Below, piece by piece: positions 15,651-26,515 of a stretch of 32,766 bases of DNA. The notes beneath the pieces were generated by a model that had not been told where the DNA came from, did no database searches, and saw only the letters and a list, made by a program, of their open reading frames with translations. Positions within the stretch are counted from its first letter, which is position 1. Every line of letters starts with the position of its first letter. Position numbers and translations under genes: made by a program. This DNA comes from Candidatus Saccharimonadota bacterium (lineage in GTDB: Bacteria; Patescibacteriota; Saccharimonadia; Saccharimonadales; UBA4665). The stretch is taken from assembly GCA_028286405.1 (NCBI GenBank), contig JAQBRP010000016.1, positions 1-32,766 on the forward strand. The letters are read 5' to 3'.

Positions 15651-17033
15651 TTATGCAAGTTTACTAGTTAGCTCTGTGCTAGCTACTCGTTGTTGCTCGG
15701 TCGTGTCACGATCACGGACCGTAACCGTGCCGTCTTCAAGCGTGTCAAAGTCGATAACCACGCAGTACGGCGTACCAATTTCATCTTGCCTACGGTAGCG
15801 TTTGCCGATGTTGCCATTGTCGTCCCACATGACATTGCCGAATTCTTTTTTGAGTGCCGTGTATACTTCGCGAGCTTTTTCGACAAGTTCTGGCTTGTTT
15901 TTGAGCAGTGGCGATACCGCAACTTTAACTGGCGCGAGGTGCTTTGGCAGTTTTAGATAGGTGCGCTTTTCACCGTTCACTTCGTCTTCGGTGTAAGCGG
16001 CAGCCAATACGGCCATAATGCTGCGCTCCAAGCCAAACGACGGTTCAATCACGTGTGGCACAAACGGTTCACCACCGTCTTTTGGTCGGTAGTCCATACT
16101 TTTACCGCTTGCCTTTTGGATGTTCTGCAGGTCAAAGTCAGTGCGATAAGCCAGGCCCAAAAGCTCTTCGCGGCCAATTGGAAAATCAAATTCAAAGTCG
16201 ACGGTGCGCTTGCTATAGTGGGCACGGTCAGCTTCGGGCACTTCTAATTCGTGTACCGATTCTGTCGGCAGACCGAGCGCGTCGGTCCACTCGTGCACCA
16301 ACTTCAGCCACATAGTAAAGGCTTCTTCCCAGTTATCGGGGTGCACAAAATACTCGATTTCCATCTGTTCAAACTCGCGCGAGCGAAACACAAAGTCACG
16401 CGGACTAATCTCGTTGCGGAAGGCCTTGCCCTGCTGCGCCAAACCAAATGGCATATCGGGGTAAAACGAATCTACGACATTTTTAAAGTTCGTAAAAATA
16501 CCCTGCGCGGTTTCTGGCCGTAGGTATGAAACACTTGATGGTTCGTAAGTTATCGCTTTACGACCTTCAAGGTCAACACTTCGCTTCTGTTCATCCAGTG
16601 GCGCACCAATCGTCACTTCTTCACCTTGGTTTGGACCAACAAATGTGCGGAACATCATATTGAACTGGCGCGCTTCGCCAAACGTATCGGTTTTGCCACA
16701 AGTTGGGCACTTGTTAGGATCGTCCAGCTTGTCAGCACGGTGGCGGGCATGGCAGTTTGAGCACTCGACGAGTGGGTCAGTAAAGGTGTCAACATGACCA
16801 CTGGCCTGCCAAACTTTTTGATTCATTAAAATAGCGGCGTCAACGCCGAGCATGTCCTCACGGTCGTCGACGAACATCTTCCACCAAAGCTGCAAAATAT
16901 TGCGCTTCAGCTGAACGCCAAGCGGACCGTAATCCCAAGTACCACTTAATCCACCGTATACGTCTGAGCCTGGGTAAATAAATCCGCGGCGTTTACAGAG
17001 GCTAACGATGTCTTCAAGTTTGGTGTTGCTCAT
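15651..17033 (-). CDS. glyQS: Glycyl-tRNA synthetase (dimeric class II)
   Basis: CKRRGFIYPGSDVYGGLSGTWDYGPLGVQLKRNI, LRPETAQGIFTNFKNV, GKAFRNEISPRDFVFRSREFEQMEIEYFV, VIEPSFGLERSIMAVL, YRRQDEIGTPYCVVIDFDTLEDGTVTVRDRDTTEQQRV. Confidence 0.96.
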   Translation of the reverse strand: MSNTKLEDIVSLCKRRGFIYPGSDVYGGLSGTWDYGPLGVQLKRNILQLWWKMFVDDREDMLGVDAAILMNQKVWQASGHVDTFTDPLVECSNCHARHRADKLDDPNKCPTCGKTDTFGEARQFNMMFRTFVGPNQGEEVTIGAPLDEQKRSVDLEGRKAITYEPSSVSYLRPETAQGIFTNFKNVVDSFYPDMPFGLAQQGKAFRNEISPRDFVFRSREFEQMEIEYFVHPDNWEEAFTMWLKLVHEWTDALGLPTESVHELEVPEADRAHYSKRTVDFEFDFPIGREELLGLAYRTDFDLQNIQKASGKSMDYRPKDGGEPFVPHVIEPSFGLERSIMAVLAAAYTEDEVNGEKRTYLKLPKHLAPVKVAVSPLLKNKPELVEKAREVYTALKKEFGNVMWDDNGNIGKRYRRQDEIGTPYCVVIDFDTLEDGTVTVRDRDTTEQQRVASTELTSKLA

Positions 17034-17041
17034 TGCTGAAA

Positions 17042-17047
17042 ATTATA
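17042..17047 (-). promoter_or_regulatory. -10 box TATAAT upstream of glyQS
   Basis: Minus strand GGGTATAATTTTCAGCAATGAGC; predicted 2-nt UTR. Confidence 0.5.
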
Positions 17048-17735
17048 CCCGAATGTAAGAAGTTAGCATAGTTTGCACCAGCGGCATGACAATTGGCAGC
17101 AACTTGGGCACACCAGTGACTTGCTGCAATAGTTTGGGCGAACCGCCAGCAAAGGCCAGGCGCAGGAACTTAATGTGGTCGGGCGTGAACTGCCCTTCGG
17201 GATGTTCGGCGAATGATACATTGTCAAAATCAAAGGTGTAACGCAGATCGGCCGACAGTTTTGCGCCCGTGGCATCGGTGTGTAAATTGGGCGAGTGGCC
17301 GGACAGCTTTACCAGCTGCACATTAAACCAAAAACGCACCAGAGCCACGTCAATCGAATCGTCGTTCAGGGCTTCAAATACCTGCTGTAGTAGCTCGAAG
17401 TATTCGGCCTCTGGCTCGTCTTCGGTTGCCCGGTCGAGCGCTTTAATAAGTTCATAGCCCAGCTGCACTCGGTCAATGTTTTTTACAATCTTGCCGTAAT
17501 GTTTGTCTAAACGAGCCGATACCAGTGTTCCAAGCTCTCCCCTGCCCTTAATATATGTGATGCCGCTCACACTAAATAGCTCAATGCCGCCAGCTAACTT
17601 ACTCTTGGGTTTGCGCACACCCCTGGCAATTAAGCTAATTTTACCGTTTGCCGGGGTCAGTAGCTTAATAATCCGATCGGCTTCGCCGTAGTTGGTACGC
17701 GATAAAATAATGCCATCGGTAATGAGTTGATTCAT
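17043..17735 (-). CDS. recO: DNA repair protein RecO
   Basis: TDGIILSRTNYGEADRIIKLLTPANGKISLIARGVRKPKSKLAGGIELFS...LVSARLDKHYG; OB-fold N-terminus typical of RecO. Confidence 0.92.
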   Translation of the reverse strand: MNQLITDGIILSRTNYGEADRIIKLLTPANGKISLIARGVRKPKSKLAGGIELFSVSGITYIKGRGELGTLVSARLDKHYGKIVKNIDRVQLGYELIKALDRATEDEPEAEYFELLQQVFEALNDDSIDVALVRFWFNVQLVKLSGHSPNLHTDATGAKLSADLRYTFDFDNVSFAEHPEGQFTPDHIKFLRLAFAGGSPKLLQQVTGVPKLLPIVMPLVQTMLTSYIRV

Positions 17736-18115
17736 ACAGTTACAGGATTCACGGCGCTGACTGCACGCAATAAGGTGCGTAAGCTGGTCAGCGGCTTGTA
17801 GTGATAACCCTGCACGCCCAGCTGGTCACGTAGCAGACTCCAGCAATCGCTGAACTCACCGGCTGGCACGTTGGTTAACACAATCACCGGCACAGCCGTC
17901 CAGTCGTCGTAACTGCGGAATTCATACAAAAACTCGATGCCCGAGTGGCTGGTGAGCTGTAGTTCCATAATCACCAGGTCGGGCTTGAGCTCGTCGGCGG
18001 CAAATATTGCCGCCTGCGCAGTGGCACACATCACTACTTTGTGGCCAGCCTGTGTCAGCGCCTGGCGATAGGTGTTGGCCAGTACTTTGTCGGGTTCTAA
18101 TAAGACGATCTTCAT
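17732..18115 (-). CDS. Degenerate response-regulator receiver domain (pseudo-receiver, Asp to Glu)
   Basis: MKIVLLEPDKVLANTYRQALTQAGHKV...KPDLVIMELQLTSHSGIEFLYEFR...VPVIVLTNVPA...YHYKPLTSL. Acceptor position is Glu51 (codon 17963-17965, GAA). ATGA overlaps on both sides. Confidence 0.85.
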   Translation of the reverse strand: MKIVLLEPDKVLANTYRQALTQAGHKVVMCATAQAAIFAADELKPDLVIMELQLTSHSGIEFLYEFRSYDDWTAVPVIVLTNVPAGEFSDCWSLLRDQLGVQGYHYKPLTSLRTLLRAVSAVNPVTV

Positions 18116-18825
18116 ACGAGCTGCAGCTGGTTGTTAGATTGCATGACGGCACCGAGCCCATATAGACGATTGTGGCGGGTAGGTTGCAGGCGTAAATTCA
18201 TGGCCTGCAAAATAGCGTCGGCCACAAAAATACCGGCTCCGCTACTGTGTGACACGCCGACTAATGGCTGGCGGCTCTTGCCGAGCAGCTGGTTGCCCCG
18301 ACGTAGGCTTTCGGCCGTCAGTGCTTCACTATCGCTGTATAATCCGGCCACGATGCCATAGCGGCTGCGGTGGGCTCCCAGTTGCAGCGTGAGTTGCTGA
18401 CTATTCAGCGCTGGCAAGGCTTCAATTAAAGCCACACCAAGGCTGGTTAAGGCTGCTTGCAGGCCCTCTCGATTGGTGAGTACCGGCGCATAACGACCGC
18501 CAATGCTGAGTTCTAGGTGGACACCGTAGAACTTGGCAACACTGCTTAGTTGGTGGGCCGTATCGTATAACACCGAGGAGACCGATACTGGTTCGAGCTC
18601 CAGTGCCGCCTGGCCGCCCTCGGCCAGGCGTACACCAAGTACATAGGAATCGACCAAACGAAGTGCCGAATCGGCCGTGGCTTGGATGGCGGCCAGGTCG
18701 ACGTCTTGGCCCAGTGAAGCCAGCTCGGCGCGGCGGGCAATTTGGAGCAACGGCAGCTTTAGTTGCTCGGCTAATCCAAGCAATAATTGCTGCGACTGAA
18801 TCGGCTCGTCGGCCGCACGCACCAT
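18112..18825 (-). CDS. Degenerate sensor histidine kinase-like protein (H-box His to Glu; eroded N-box)
   Basis: LAEQLKLPLLQIARRAEL aligns with SHELRTPL with His replaced by Glu20 (codon 18766-18768, GAG); C-terminal SSGAGIFVADAILQAMNLRL resembles a remnant G2-box. Confidence 0.7.
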   Translation of the reverse strand: MVRAADEPIQSQQLLLGLAEQLKLPLLQIARRAELASLGQDVDLAAIQATADSALRLVDSYVLGVRLAEGGQAALELEPVSVSSVLYDTAHQLSSVAKFYGVHLELSIGGRYAPVLTNREGLQAALTSLGVALIEALPALNSQQLTLQLGAHRSRYGIVAGLYSDSEALTAESLRRGNQLLGKSRQPLVGVSHSSGAGIFVADAILQAMNLRLQPTRHNRLYGLGAVMQSNNQLQLV

Positions 18826-18868: not shown

Positions 18869-19525
18869 TTACGGGGAGAATGTCAAATTCGGCAGAATAT
18901 TGTTATTGAAGTCGGCCATGAAGGCGTCAGCTTCGGTGTAGATCTTTAGGGTCTTGTCGCGGACTGGCAGAATAACCATGCTGCCCTTCTTGGCATCTTC
19001 AATTTGGCCATCAACCTTCACGCCAATAACTTTTGGCAGTTTTGGCAAGGCGTACGGTGTAATCGTGACACCTTCTTGATCGCTGTAATCACTTAGAACT
19101 TCGCTATAGGCGCTATCTACTACTTCAATGCGCAGGGCGAAGGTACTACTTTCGGCACCCACGGTTGGCACAAAGTCAGGGTTAAAGTAACCACTAAGCC
19201 CCGCATCACTACCCTCGCCCGTGACCACGTAGGCACTCCAGGTTTTAGGGTACTGTAGTGCTAAGCTGCCGTATTCCTCGGGACCGTTGTAGGTTTTGAG
19301 CGGTAATTTAGCAGCCTCGGCGTATTGTTTGTCTTTGACAGCGGCTTCTTGTTGCTTGGCAATCACTACAGCAGCAGCAGCTTTTTGGTCGGAGTTATTT
19401 TTATAATCTTGGCGCTCACCGTACGCCCAAAAGCCAAAGCCTAAGGCACCAATCAAGAAGAGGCTGGCTAAAATTAAGGGTAGCACCAGCACATTAATTG
19501 CGCCGTTCTGGTTATGCTTTCTCAT
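18869..19525 (-). CDS. Hypothetical membrane-anchored protein
   Basis: Start reassigned to MRKHNQNGAINVLVLPLILASLFLIGALGFGFWAYGERQDYK; one TM plus extracytoplasmic domain. Confidence 0.7.
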   Translation of the reverse strand: MRKHNQNGAINVLVLPLILASLFLIGALGFGFWAYGERQDYKNNSDQKAAAAVVIAKQQEAAVKDKQYAEAAKLPLKTYNGPEEYGSLALQYPKTWSAYVVTGEGSDAGLSGYFNPDFVPTVGAESSTFALRIEVVDSAYSEVLSDYSDQEGVTITPYALPKLPKVIGVKVDGQIEDAKKGSMVILPVRDKTLKIYTEADAFMADFNNNILPNLTFSP

Positions 19526-19532
19526 AGCTACG

Positions 19533-19538
19533 ATGGTA
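19533..19538 (-). promoter_or_regulatory. Extended -10-like (TGG TACCAT) upstream of 18869-19525
   Basis: Minus strand TGTGGTACCATCGTAGCTATGAG; predicted 1-nt UTR. Confidence 0.4.
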
Positions 19539-19557
19539 CCACAGGCAGGAGCGACGA

Positions 19558-20049
19558 TCAATCGGCGTAATCGTACAGCAAAACACCTTTTTTCTCTCGC
19601 GTCGGCGTACGACCAGGCACCGCGAATGCAAAACTCACCAGTTTGACGTTTTGCATATTCGATTGAACAATTTTTTTATCCAGCTTTTTCATAAATCGCG
19701 GGTGCAAAAACGTAAAAATACCGCTTGCCTCGGGCCATTGCTTGGTCCAGAAGTTACCGCAGACTACGCGTACAGCGCCCTTAAAGCGTCTAGTTCGGGC
19801 CCAAGCTACGAAGGCTAGCAGCGGGTTTAGTTCATAGCCTACAGCGTGCAAGCCAGTCTGGGCAGCGGCAATTAACACCTTACCGTCCCCGCAACCCAGC
19901 TCTAACAGCGTTTCACCGGGCTTCAAGTTCACGAGTTCCAGCGCTACTTCCACTTGCGGCGTTAGGGTTGGTACATACGGCGCACCAAACAGCAGCACAA
20001 AGCTAAAACTGAACAACACCACCAAACCGATGAGCGCCAACCATATCAT
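19558..20049 (-). CDS. Membrane-anchored class I SAM-dependent methyltransferase
   Basis: N-terminal TM; LVNLKPGETLLELGCGDGKVLIAAAQTGLHAVGYELNPLLAFVAWAR. Confidence 0.85.
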   Translation of the reverse strand: MIWLALIGLVVLFSFSFVLLFGAPYVPTLTPQVEVALELVNLKPGETLLELGCGDGKVLIAAAQTGLHAVGYELNPLLAFVAWARTRRFKGAVRVVCGNFWTKQWPEASGIFTFLHPRFMKKLDKKIVQSNMQNVKLVSFAFAVPGRTPTREKKGVLLYDYAD

Positions 20050-24117: not shown

Positions 24118-24717
24118 TTATTGCGCAGATTGATGCGGGGGTTCAGCAATACCCAGGGCGGTATCGGCTGCGAAGCGGCTCTGACCTTCCATGTCACCCC
24201 GTGCATTTATACTAATTTGATCCGTAGAGCTAACCATACGGTCATCAAAAGTTCCATCAAGTTTTGCCAAGCATAACAATGCTGCATACTCCCGGCTTGT
24301 CATGCTGGACACTGGTGCCGCATATTTATCAGGAGTTTTCTGTGTATCCTCGGTTATGCGTAGCGGCATAACATCTTCAATAGCTGCAAGTTGATCTATT
24401 TTTCGCAGAAAATACGTTCCCGCCTCTACGCGAAGTTGCTCGACTGTACGTAAGCCATCGACGACGGTAAGCTCTTGACCCGCGACGATGCCTGCATCAC
24501 CCCTCACTACTGGCCCTAAATGGCGATTAAGAATGTCCCCGAGCTCTCTGTTAAAGTGAAGAGCTGATGACAGACGCCCCACTGCCTGCTGCCGTGTTGC
24601 AGACGACACAACTAGCCGCTCACGTCCTCCATGATCTTGGGTCGCAAATAGGCGTGTGTAGCGCGTACCTAATCGTGATTCTTGAGGTGCTGGATCGGGT
24701 TTGGGGAAGTTTTCCAT
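24118..24717 (-). CDS. Hypothetical protein downstream of the FHA-transglutaminase gene
   Basis: 199-aa ORF in tandem (20-nt gap) with the FHA-transglutaminase gene; no recognised family. Confidence 0.6.
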   Translation of the reverse strand: MENFPKPDPAPQESRLGTRYTRLFATQDHGGRERLVVSSATRQQAVGRLSSALHFNRELGDILNRHLGPVVRGDAGIVAGQELTVVDGLRTVEQLRVEAGTYFLRKIDQLAAIEDVMPLRITEDTQKTPDKYAAPVSSMTSREYAALLCLAKLDGTFDDRMVSSTDQISINARGDMEGQSRFAADTALGIAEPPHQSAQ

Positions 24718-24737: not shown

Positions 24738-26075
24738 TTAAAACTGCATATCTATTTGGGTACTGTCACCTAGCACTCGGCTAACAACCGCGTTGCCGCT
24801 AAACTTCTGCATATAGGCATCCTTTTCACCCGAACGAAAATACTCCCAACGATCGGGCCTGTACGATAGGTTGGCCAAGCGACCAAAATAACGCTGGGCC
24901 GGGTCGATAATAAACACTTCGCCGTTAGCTGCAGTATAACGAGCCCATTCATGAGCTGCGTTGTCATGTACGCGTTGATTTACTTCAGCAGTCATACGAC
25001 CCGTGAGTAGACCACGCTCAGCTGCCTCGGATCCGAGCCAAGCAGCAGCAAGCGCCATCTGGCGGCACACTCCCTTCTTGCTATCCAGATACCAAGCAAG
25101 GTTAATCTTACGATGGTCGCTACCGCTTTTTTGCATCATTTCCGATATCTCATTCACATATGGAAGATCATATTCCATACTAGATGAGACAGCTCGGTGG
25201 ATGGCCGCCAACACAGCCTCTTCATCTAAGCCTCCTTCAGGACCCCAGCGACGGGTACTATCAAGGTCCTTCATAAATGCGTCGAAGAGCTCTTTGTAAG
25301 GTTGTGGGTCTTTATCTGGATCAACAACTATCGCTTCTGCTCCGGCACCCCAAGAGCGGATATCAACGGTCGCTTCGCCCTTTGGTCCAACTGTTGTATT
25401 ACGGGTAATGACTTTACGGCCAGCAAATTCGTCCTGCTCATTCAGTAATTGACGGCGACGCGCTAATTCTGAAGCGCTAATCGTGTGTTCCGACACATGA
25501 CTTTCGGTCGCAAAGACTTTACCCTTAAGACGAGTGCCGTTCGTAGAGGTCTCGTGCATAAATAGACGGGGGCCAAAGCTTGTTAGAGTAATGTGCTCCC
25601 GAGAGACACCCTCATCATACTGGAAACCTTTGCCCCATAACGCTTCGGCAGATACGGGAGTGTGCTTACCCTCGGCATGACCACTATCGGCAAAGCGACC
25701 AAGTGTTATACCCTTAGAGCGAACGGGCACGAAATGCTTATTCGCAATAGCGTTGCCAGCTTCATCAACATCCAGACCCTGCAGTACATAGATATTCCGC
25801 CCATCGGTACGATTTTTCATTCTCAAGATAGCCACATGTGCGTCCTGACTACTTATGCCACGCTCAGGGTTATCAACCTGGAGTACGATTTCTGCCACTA
25901 CACTAATGTCAGCTACGCTGTCTTGGGGGTGGAGGCCAATACTTTCAATATCATATATAGGTTCCTCGACCATGAACTCGGCTTCTGTTTGGCGTAACTC
26001 TTGCATACGTAGCAGATCGGTTCTCTCTTCTCGAGGAGCGGCAAGTGGGGCTTGATTGTGTGAGGCAACTGTCAT
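24738..26075 (-). CDS. FHA-domain/transglutaminase-like fusion protein
   Basis: FHA core GITLGRFAD...YDEGVSREHITLTSFGPRLFMHETSTNGTRLKG; transglutaminase-like triad region SKKGVCRQMALAAAWL (Cys), AAHEWARYT (His), VFIIDPAQ (Asp). Confidence 0.8.
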   Translation of the reverse strand: MTVASHNQAPLAAPREERTDLLRMQELRQTEAEFMVEEPIYDIESIGLHPQDSVADISVVAEIVLQVDNPERGISSQDAHVAILRMKNRTDGRNIYVLQGLDVDEAGNAIANKHFVPVRSKGITLGRFADSGHAEGKHTPVSAEALWGKGFQYDEGVSREHITLTSFGPRLFMHETSTNGTRLKGKVFATESHVSEHTISASELARRRQLLNEQDEFAGRKVITRNTTVGPKGEATVDIRSWGAGAEAIVVDPDKDPQPYKELFDAFMKDLDSTRRWGPEGGLDEEAVLAAIHRAVSSSMEYDLPYVNEISEMMQKSGSDHRKINLAWYLDSKKGVCRQMALAAAWLGSEAAERGLLTGRMTAEVNQRVHDNAAHEWARYTAANGEVFIIDPAQRYFGRLANLSYRPDRWEYFRSGEKDAYMQKFSGNAVVSRVLGDSTQIDMQF

Positions 26076-26140: not shown

Positions 26141-26515
26141 CTAGAGGCCGAGGTGGTGCTTGATTCGTTCAATAACGTCAGCTATAACGACTTGGGATTT
26201 GACCATGTAATCGTCTACCCCGAGTGATTCGGCGCGTTGCTTGTCGCTTTCTTGGCTGAGGGCGGTTAGCATAATAACCTTGAGGTTGGCGGTTTCGGGG
26301 GTATTGCGCAGAATGTCGAGCACGTCGAAGCCGCTGACTTTTGGCATCATAACATCGAGCAGTACCAGATCGGGTTTGTAGCTAATGGCGTCAGCTAGGG
26401 CGTCTTCGCCGTTGGCGACGCGGCGGACGTCAAAACCTTCGGCCTGGAGGCGCATAAGGTACACATTTGCCAGGGCGTCGTCGTCTTCAACCAGCAGGAT
26501 TCGTTTTGGGTGCAT
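26141..26515 (-). CDS. Stand-alone response regulator (intact receiver domain)
   Basis: ILLVEDDDALANVY, KPDLVLLDVMMPKVSGFDVL, VIMLTALSQ, DYMVKSQV: canonical DD/D/T/K set. Confidence 0.93.
   Translation of the reverse strand: MHPKRILLVEDDDALANVYLMRLQAEGFDVRRVANGEDALADAISYKPDLVLLDVMMPKVSGFDVLDILRNTPETANLKVIMLTALSQESDKQRAESLGVDDYMVKSQVVIADVIERIKHHLGL

Follow-up and report, generated by a model that had tools for sequence, protein, structure and literature searches.

Organization of the locus

The window considered here is the whole analysed stretch of 32,766 nucleotides from a Candidatus Saccharimonadota contig, and the source assembly comprises 636 kb in 20 contigs. On the minus strand, a methyltransferase-like gene is followed in the order of transcription by the genes of a membrane protein, a kinase-like protein, a receiver, RecO and GlyS (Table 1). 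The initial annotation described the kinase-like and receiver genes as a two-component-like pair with both phospho-acceptors replaced by glutamate. The coordinates it gave for the two reading frames are correct, and the −4 ATGA overlaps at the kinase-receiver and receiver-recO junctions are real (GTATGAAG, GTATGAAT). As a sign of a special link these overlaps are weak, since 4-nt overlaps are common among the orthologous loci: they are present between the kinase and receiver genes in 49 of 127 loci and between the receiver gene and recO in 77 of 126. Scans of the region for promoters and terminators yielded no more than scans of shuffled sequence.

Table 1. Features of the window, with the kinase-receiver-recO block in the order of transcription
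Feature	Coordinates	Strand	Description
Class I methyltransferase-like gene	19558..20049	−	upstream; kept in many loci
Putative single-pass membrane protein	18869..19561	−	has a coiled coil and an outer domain; without a Pfam match
Predicted pseudo-histidine kinase	18112..18825	−	237 aa; DHp and CA fold; no transmembrane or sensor domain
Predicted pseudo-receiver	17732..18115	−	127 aa; single domain; Pfam Response_reg 1.1e-10
recO	17043..17735	−	RecO_N and RecO_C domains; ATGA overlap with the receiver gene
glyS	15651..17033	−	3′ of recO, in about two thirds of the loci whose sequence extends far enough
Canonical receiver	26141..26515		Pfam match
Gene with weak FHA-domain match	24738..26075	−	E 0.018, under the Pfam cut-off
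199-aa ORF	24118..24717		no family; downstream of the gene with the weak FHA match

The canonical receiver noted earlier in the same window is also real, hence normal receivers occur in the window too, and canonical kinases are present elsewhere in the genome.

Folds and active sites of the two proteins

The kinase-like protein has no Pfam match. Its AlphaFold model (pLDDT 83.6) has the DHp and CA fold of a kinase, and Foldseek matches the model to solved histidine kinases (E 5e-9), including DivL (4q20) and HK853-RR468 complexes. Glu20 occupies the phospho-His position, as had been proposed: in the MAFFT alignment AEQLKLPL stands opposite the orthologue H-box AHELKTPL. Profile-profile alignment with canonical orthologues places E20 there independently and over the whole length (hhalign E 7.5e-30), and in the AlphaFold model the residue lies in the first DHp helix (8–39). 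A misaligned H-box is ruled out by these two results. The N-box Asn, unrecognisable to the initial annotation, is indeed gone, with A132 at its place in the orthologue alignment. The same alignment puts S164 at the position of the G1 Asp, and GAG (196–198) is a remnant of the G2 box. Of the features that define a HisKA kinase, the protein thus has the DHp and CA fold, and it is without the phospho-accepting His and without two ATP-binding residues, the N-box Asn and the G1 Asp. We infer that ATP binding is lost. By its defining residues the protein should not be a working histidine kinase; it would instead fall among the pseudo-histidine kinases, which keep the fold and lose the catalytic residues, and it is conserved in this form in about 80 species.

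The receiver has the (βα)5 fold in its AlphaFold model (pLDDT 95.2) in addition to its Pfam match, and DivK and FrzS are among the Foldseek neighbours of the model. The orthologue alignment bears out Glu51 at the phospho-Asp position and the retention of T81 and K107. It also reveals a replacement that had been missed: the second acidic position is Pro8 (EDD changed to EPD, positions 7–9), and a metal ligand is gone. With E51 and P8 in place of the phospho-Asp and one of the two acidic metal ligands, the protein is, by its defining residues, predicted not to work as a receiver, and its receiver fold without the conserved Asp is that of a pseudo-receiver, or aspartate-less receiver. Hence, the active sites of the pair are more degraded than first described, and judged on sequence both proteins fit the published definitions of a pseudo-histidine kinase and a pseudo-receiver.

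Distribution and conservation of the replacements

A search of genome contigs with the single window protein gave no matches. With five sequences the search found 37 loci, mostly named Candidatus Saccharibacteria, and the closest named relatives of the window are likewise mostly Candidatus Saccharibacteria metagenome assemblies. Among the 99 genomes searched, the window's own included, the kinase-like protein is detected in 96 and RecO in 95. Genes were extracted at 128 loci throughout the class, and 127 kinase-receiver pairs were scored for the His and Asp positions. Both residues are absent from 81 pairs and both are present in 37; seven are mixed (six without only the His and one without only the Asp), and two are unreadable at one site.

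The other orders of the class mostly have a PAS/GAF kinase of 800–900 aa with all catalytic motifs, then an Asp receiver, then recO; these kinases of the ancestral type carry SHELRTPL and the N-box. In the window's own order, the large family f35 and a number of small families have a kinase of 230–260 aa with all or most motifs and an Asp receiver. The double replacement is found in the remaining families, which are most of the order and include the window's family f1. Five loci of family f37 are mixed: in four the receiver Asp is kept and the kinase His position is D or N, and in one the His is kept and the receiver has Glu. At three loci from other orders, a small kinase-like ORF whose catalytic motifs are damaged adjoins a receiver that keeps its Asp, possibly a separate route to a pseudo-kinase.

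The replacements go together within the pairs. Among the 82 Glu receivers, the kinase position is a readable residue other than His in 80 (Glu in 69) and His in one; the 43 Asp receivers with a kinase neighbour have His there in 37 cases. The second acidic residue is Pro in 76 of the 82 Glu receivers and Asp in 38 of the 43 Asp receivers, and the receiver Lys is present in 81 of the 82. With few exceptions the derived set is fixed for Glu51, and P8, E51, H57 and W72 are all newly fixed in derived receivers, the positions of P8, H57 and W72 being different or variable in canonical ones. Both Glu codons are freely used at E51 (45 GAA, 36 GAG) and at E20 (34 GAA, 35 GAG), so that it is the residue that is kept and not merely the DNA. 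In some families the residue substituted in the H-box is not constant (D, Q, N, Y, K, S, V). The reading frames are open in about 80 derived species, and alignments of 27 proteins each have 9 invariant columns for the kinases and 13 for the receivers.

Strain-specific decay is ruled out by the clade-wide occurrence of the double replacement. Orthologues with intact His and Asp, which the initial annotation had named as evidence for such decay, do exist, but only in distant families or other orders. They are relatives of the ancestral type and therefore speak for an ancient conversion.

History of the double loss

On the RecO tree the non-canonical pairs lie mostly within one clade. When all 84 non-canonical pairs of the order were constrained to a single clade, the AU test gave p 0.751, with a likelihood above that of the free quick search. 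Hence, a single ancestral loss is not rejected, and one ancient conversion, or a few, would explain the data. As the joint loss represents one or a few events, the association of His loss with Asp loss is not significant over independent events: the independent-pairs test had two supported independent pairs only and did not show a significant correlation over independent lineages. The fixation that followed the loss carries more weight than the association itself. We tentatively suggest, at somewhat less than even odds, that a single ancestral step turned a complete cognate pair into a signalling complex independent of phosphate, which persists in most families of the order, and that the series from sensory kinase through minimal kinase to pseudo-pair, with the mixed intermediates of f37, is preserved in living species.

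Co-variation of the proteins and the wider block

Protein distances of the kinase, the receiver, RecO and the upstream membrane protein were compared by partial correlation with label permutation. The kinase-receiver partial correlation is 0.67 for all 77 derived loci, 0.53 for the 50 least divergent and 0.66 for family f1, and 0 of 500 or 200 permutations reached these values. For the same three sets the receiver-RecO values are 0.08, 0.20 and 0.17 and the kinase-RecO values 0.22, 0.05 and 0.05; between the kinase and the membrane protein the partial correlation is 0.21–0.40 in the derived sets. Since the kinase-receiver correlation exceeds that of either protein with RecO, the two still vary in step with each other more closely than either varies with RecO. 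This co-variation points, indirectly, to continued interaction, and may alternatively stem from shared changes in selection.

The kinase-receiver-recO order is near-universal in the class, and outside it was seen in 3 of 28 loci checked, from two families. The membrane-protein gene neighbours the kinase gene in 114 loci (upstream sequence of 500 nt or more is available for 116), and glyS lies downstream in 54 of the 82 loci whose sequence continues there for 400 nt or more. The upstream membrane-protein gene is thus linked as tightly as recO, and with glyS linked too the whole block is conserved, so the synteny is not specific to RecO. The membrane protein, which adjoins the kinase gene across the class, carries a YPKTWS-type motif in its outer domain.

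Family f20 departs from this order. A RecO_N match is absent from both of its genomes. In G327 the kinase and receiver genes are followed directly by glyS, with recO missing, which means that the pair can outlive recO at the locus; the G327 receiver carries Asn in place of the Asp and no longer has the Lys. In G077 only the kinase gene is present, before an unrelated ORF and glyS. From two f20 loci both recO and the membrane-protein gene are missing.

Proposed mechanism and alternatives

We suggest, with a probability of about 0.6, that the two proteins form a predicted pseudo-kinase/pseudo-receiver complex that works without phosphate and derives from a cognate two-component pair. The modelled folds and, in sequence comparisons, the replacements, their fixation and the continued kinase-receiver co-evolution speak for this. 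The phosphorylation-independent pair of the initial annotation is thereby well supported, the replacements being clade-wide, fixed and concerted in proteins that apparently still co-evolve.

The ancestor of the class would have had a cognate two-component pair upstream of recO. An ancient and concerted change, seen in most of the order's families, would then have deprived the kinase of the phospho-His and the ATP-site residues and the receiver of the phospho-Asp and a metal ligand. The pseudo-kinase may still dock the receiver through its DHp dimer, and Glu51, facing the retained Thr/Ser and Lys, may hold the receiver in an active-like state. Glu at the phospho-Asp position can act as a phosphomimetic, though it is not always activating (PMC12632262). 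Signalling would be set by the abundance of the complex or by the binding of a third partner and not by phosphate. As a partner that provides input or an anchor, the foremost candidate is the membrane protein whose gene directly precedes that of the kinase. Co-transcription with recO would provide shared expression, and contact with RecO would not be required.

The initial annotation tied the pair to a repair gene, and the receiver or the complex could indeed act on RecO by binding it and tuning recombination. The gene order speaks for this, being shared by almost every genome of the class and by a few more families elsewhere in the phylum, and so do the 4-nt receiver-recO overlaps. As a RecO partnership, however, the tie to repair finds little support: RecO distances do not track those of the receiver, with partial correlations of just 0.08–0.20, the G327 pair stands directly before glyS in a family where recO was found in neither genome, and the conserved block also includes the membrane-protein gene and often glyS. 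The low correlation and the retention of the pair in f20 do not speak for RecO as a dedicated partner, and we consider action on RecO unlikely.

Relaxed selection, under which obsolete signalling genes decay slowly and persist inside a co-translated operon with needed downstream genes, is about as unlikely. In its favour, the kinase evolves faster than the other three proteins of the derived set (mean distance 1.4, compared with 1.01 for RecO), the residue that replaces its His varies in some families, and f20 is further gone, its receiver having Asn for the Asp and no Lys. Slow decay is hard to reconcile, however, with open frames in about 80 derived species, with the 9 and 13 invariant columns, with the newly fixed P8, E51, H57 and W72, with Glu being fixed though Asp is one base change off, or with G327 keeping the pair after the loss of recO. 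A third reading, about equally unlikely, is that the pair works on other, canonical two-component proteins, the pseudo-kinase reading a phosphorylated receiver as DivL does or the pseudo-receiver sequestering a kinase. The genome has several other kinases and receivers, canonical where checked, and DivL is among the structural neighbours, but the kinase-receiver co-evolution and the constant adjacency of the genes point to each other first. We favour a complex of the two proteins that works without phosphate.

Significance and comparison with known systems

Pseudo-kinases and pseudo-receivers are each known but rare: the His is missing in 0.9% of HisKA domains and the Asp in 2.0% of receivers (PMC12632262). 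In the present case the two members of one cognate pair are disabled jointly and have been retained throughout a large clade. In the open-access papers searched we found no described case of both halves of a cognate operon pair being converted and kept, no report of this pair itself, and nothing relevant on Saccharibacteria two-component systems or recO operons; the main text of the Southlakia Tn-seq paper contains no two-component or response-regulator terms (PMC10633639). The data suggest that a sensor kinase and its partner switch protein were turned as a unit into a phosphate-free complex, and their genes have remained neighbours across dozens of families. Intact relatives survive today in the same gene neighbourhood, as do mixed intermediates, so residue swaps between relatives make two questions testable, namely which functions a two-component pair has beyond phosphotransfer and what controls a pseudo-receiver. 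The switching of bacterial pseudo-receivers has been termed a mystery (PMC12632262).

The closest described case for the kinase is DivL, and for the receiver it is FrzS or ChxR. DivL of Caulobacter shares with the window protein a kinase fold that is without the phospho-His and is kept as a protein-interaction module (PMC4211667). However, DivL reads the phosphorylation state of DivK and its partners are not operon neighbours (PMC4211667), whereas the pseudo-kinase of the window is a minimal, soluble protein encoded next to a receiver that is disabled too. FrzS, ChxR and RitR share the receiver fold without the phospho-Asp, and Glu is the commonest substitute in aspartate-less receivers (PMC12632262, PMC4395418). 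Such characterised pseudo-receivers are enriched for orphans without a partner kinase (PMC12632262, PMC4395418); unlike them, the single-domain receiver of the window keeps its adjacent kinase, itself disabled. Ordinary pairs of a PhoR/PnpS-like kinase and a single-domain receiver share the fold and the gene order, and with the basal relatives all catalytic residues as well. The derived members differ from these pairs in being without the phospho-His, the N-box, the G1 box, the phospho-Asp and the metal ligand.
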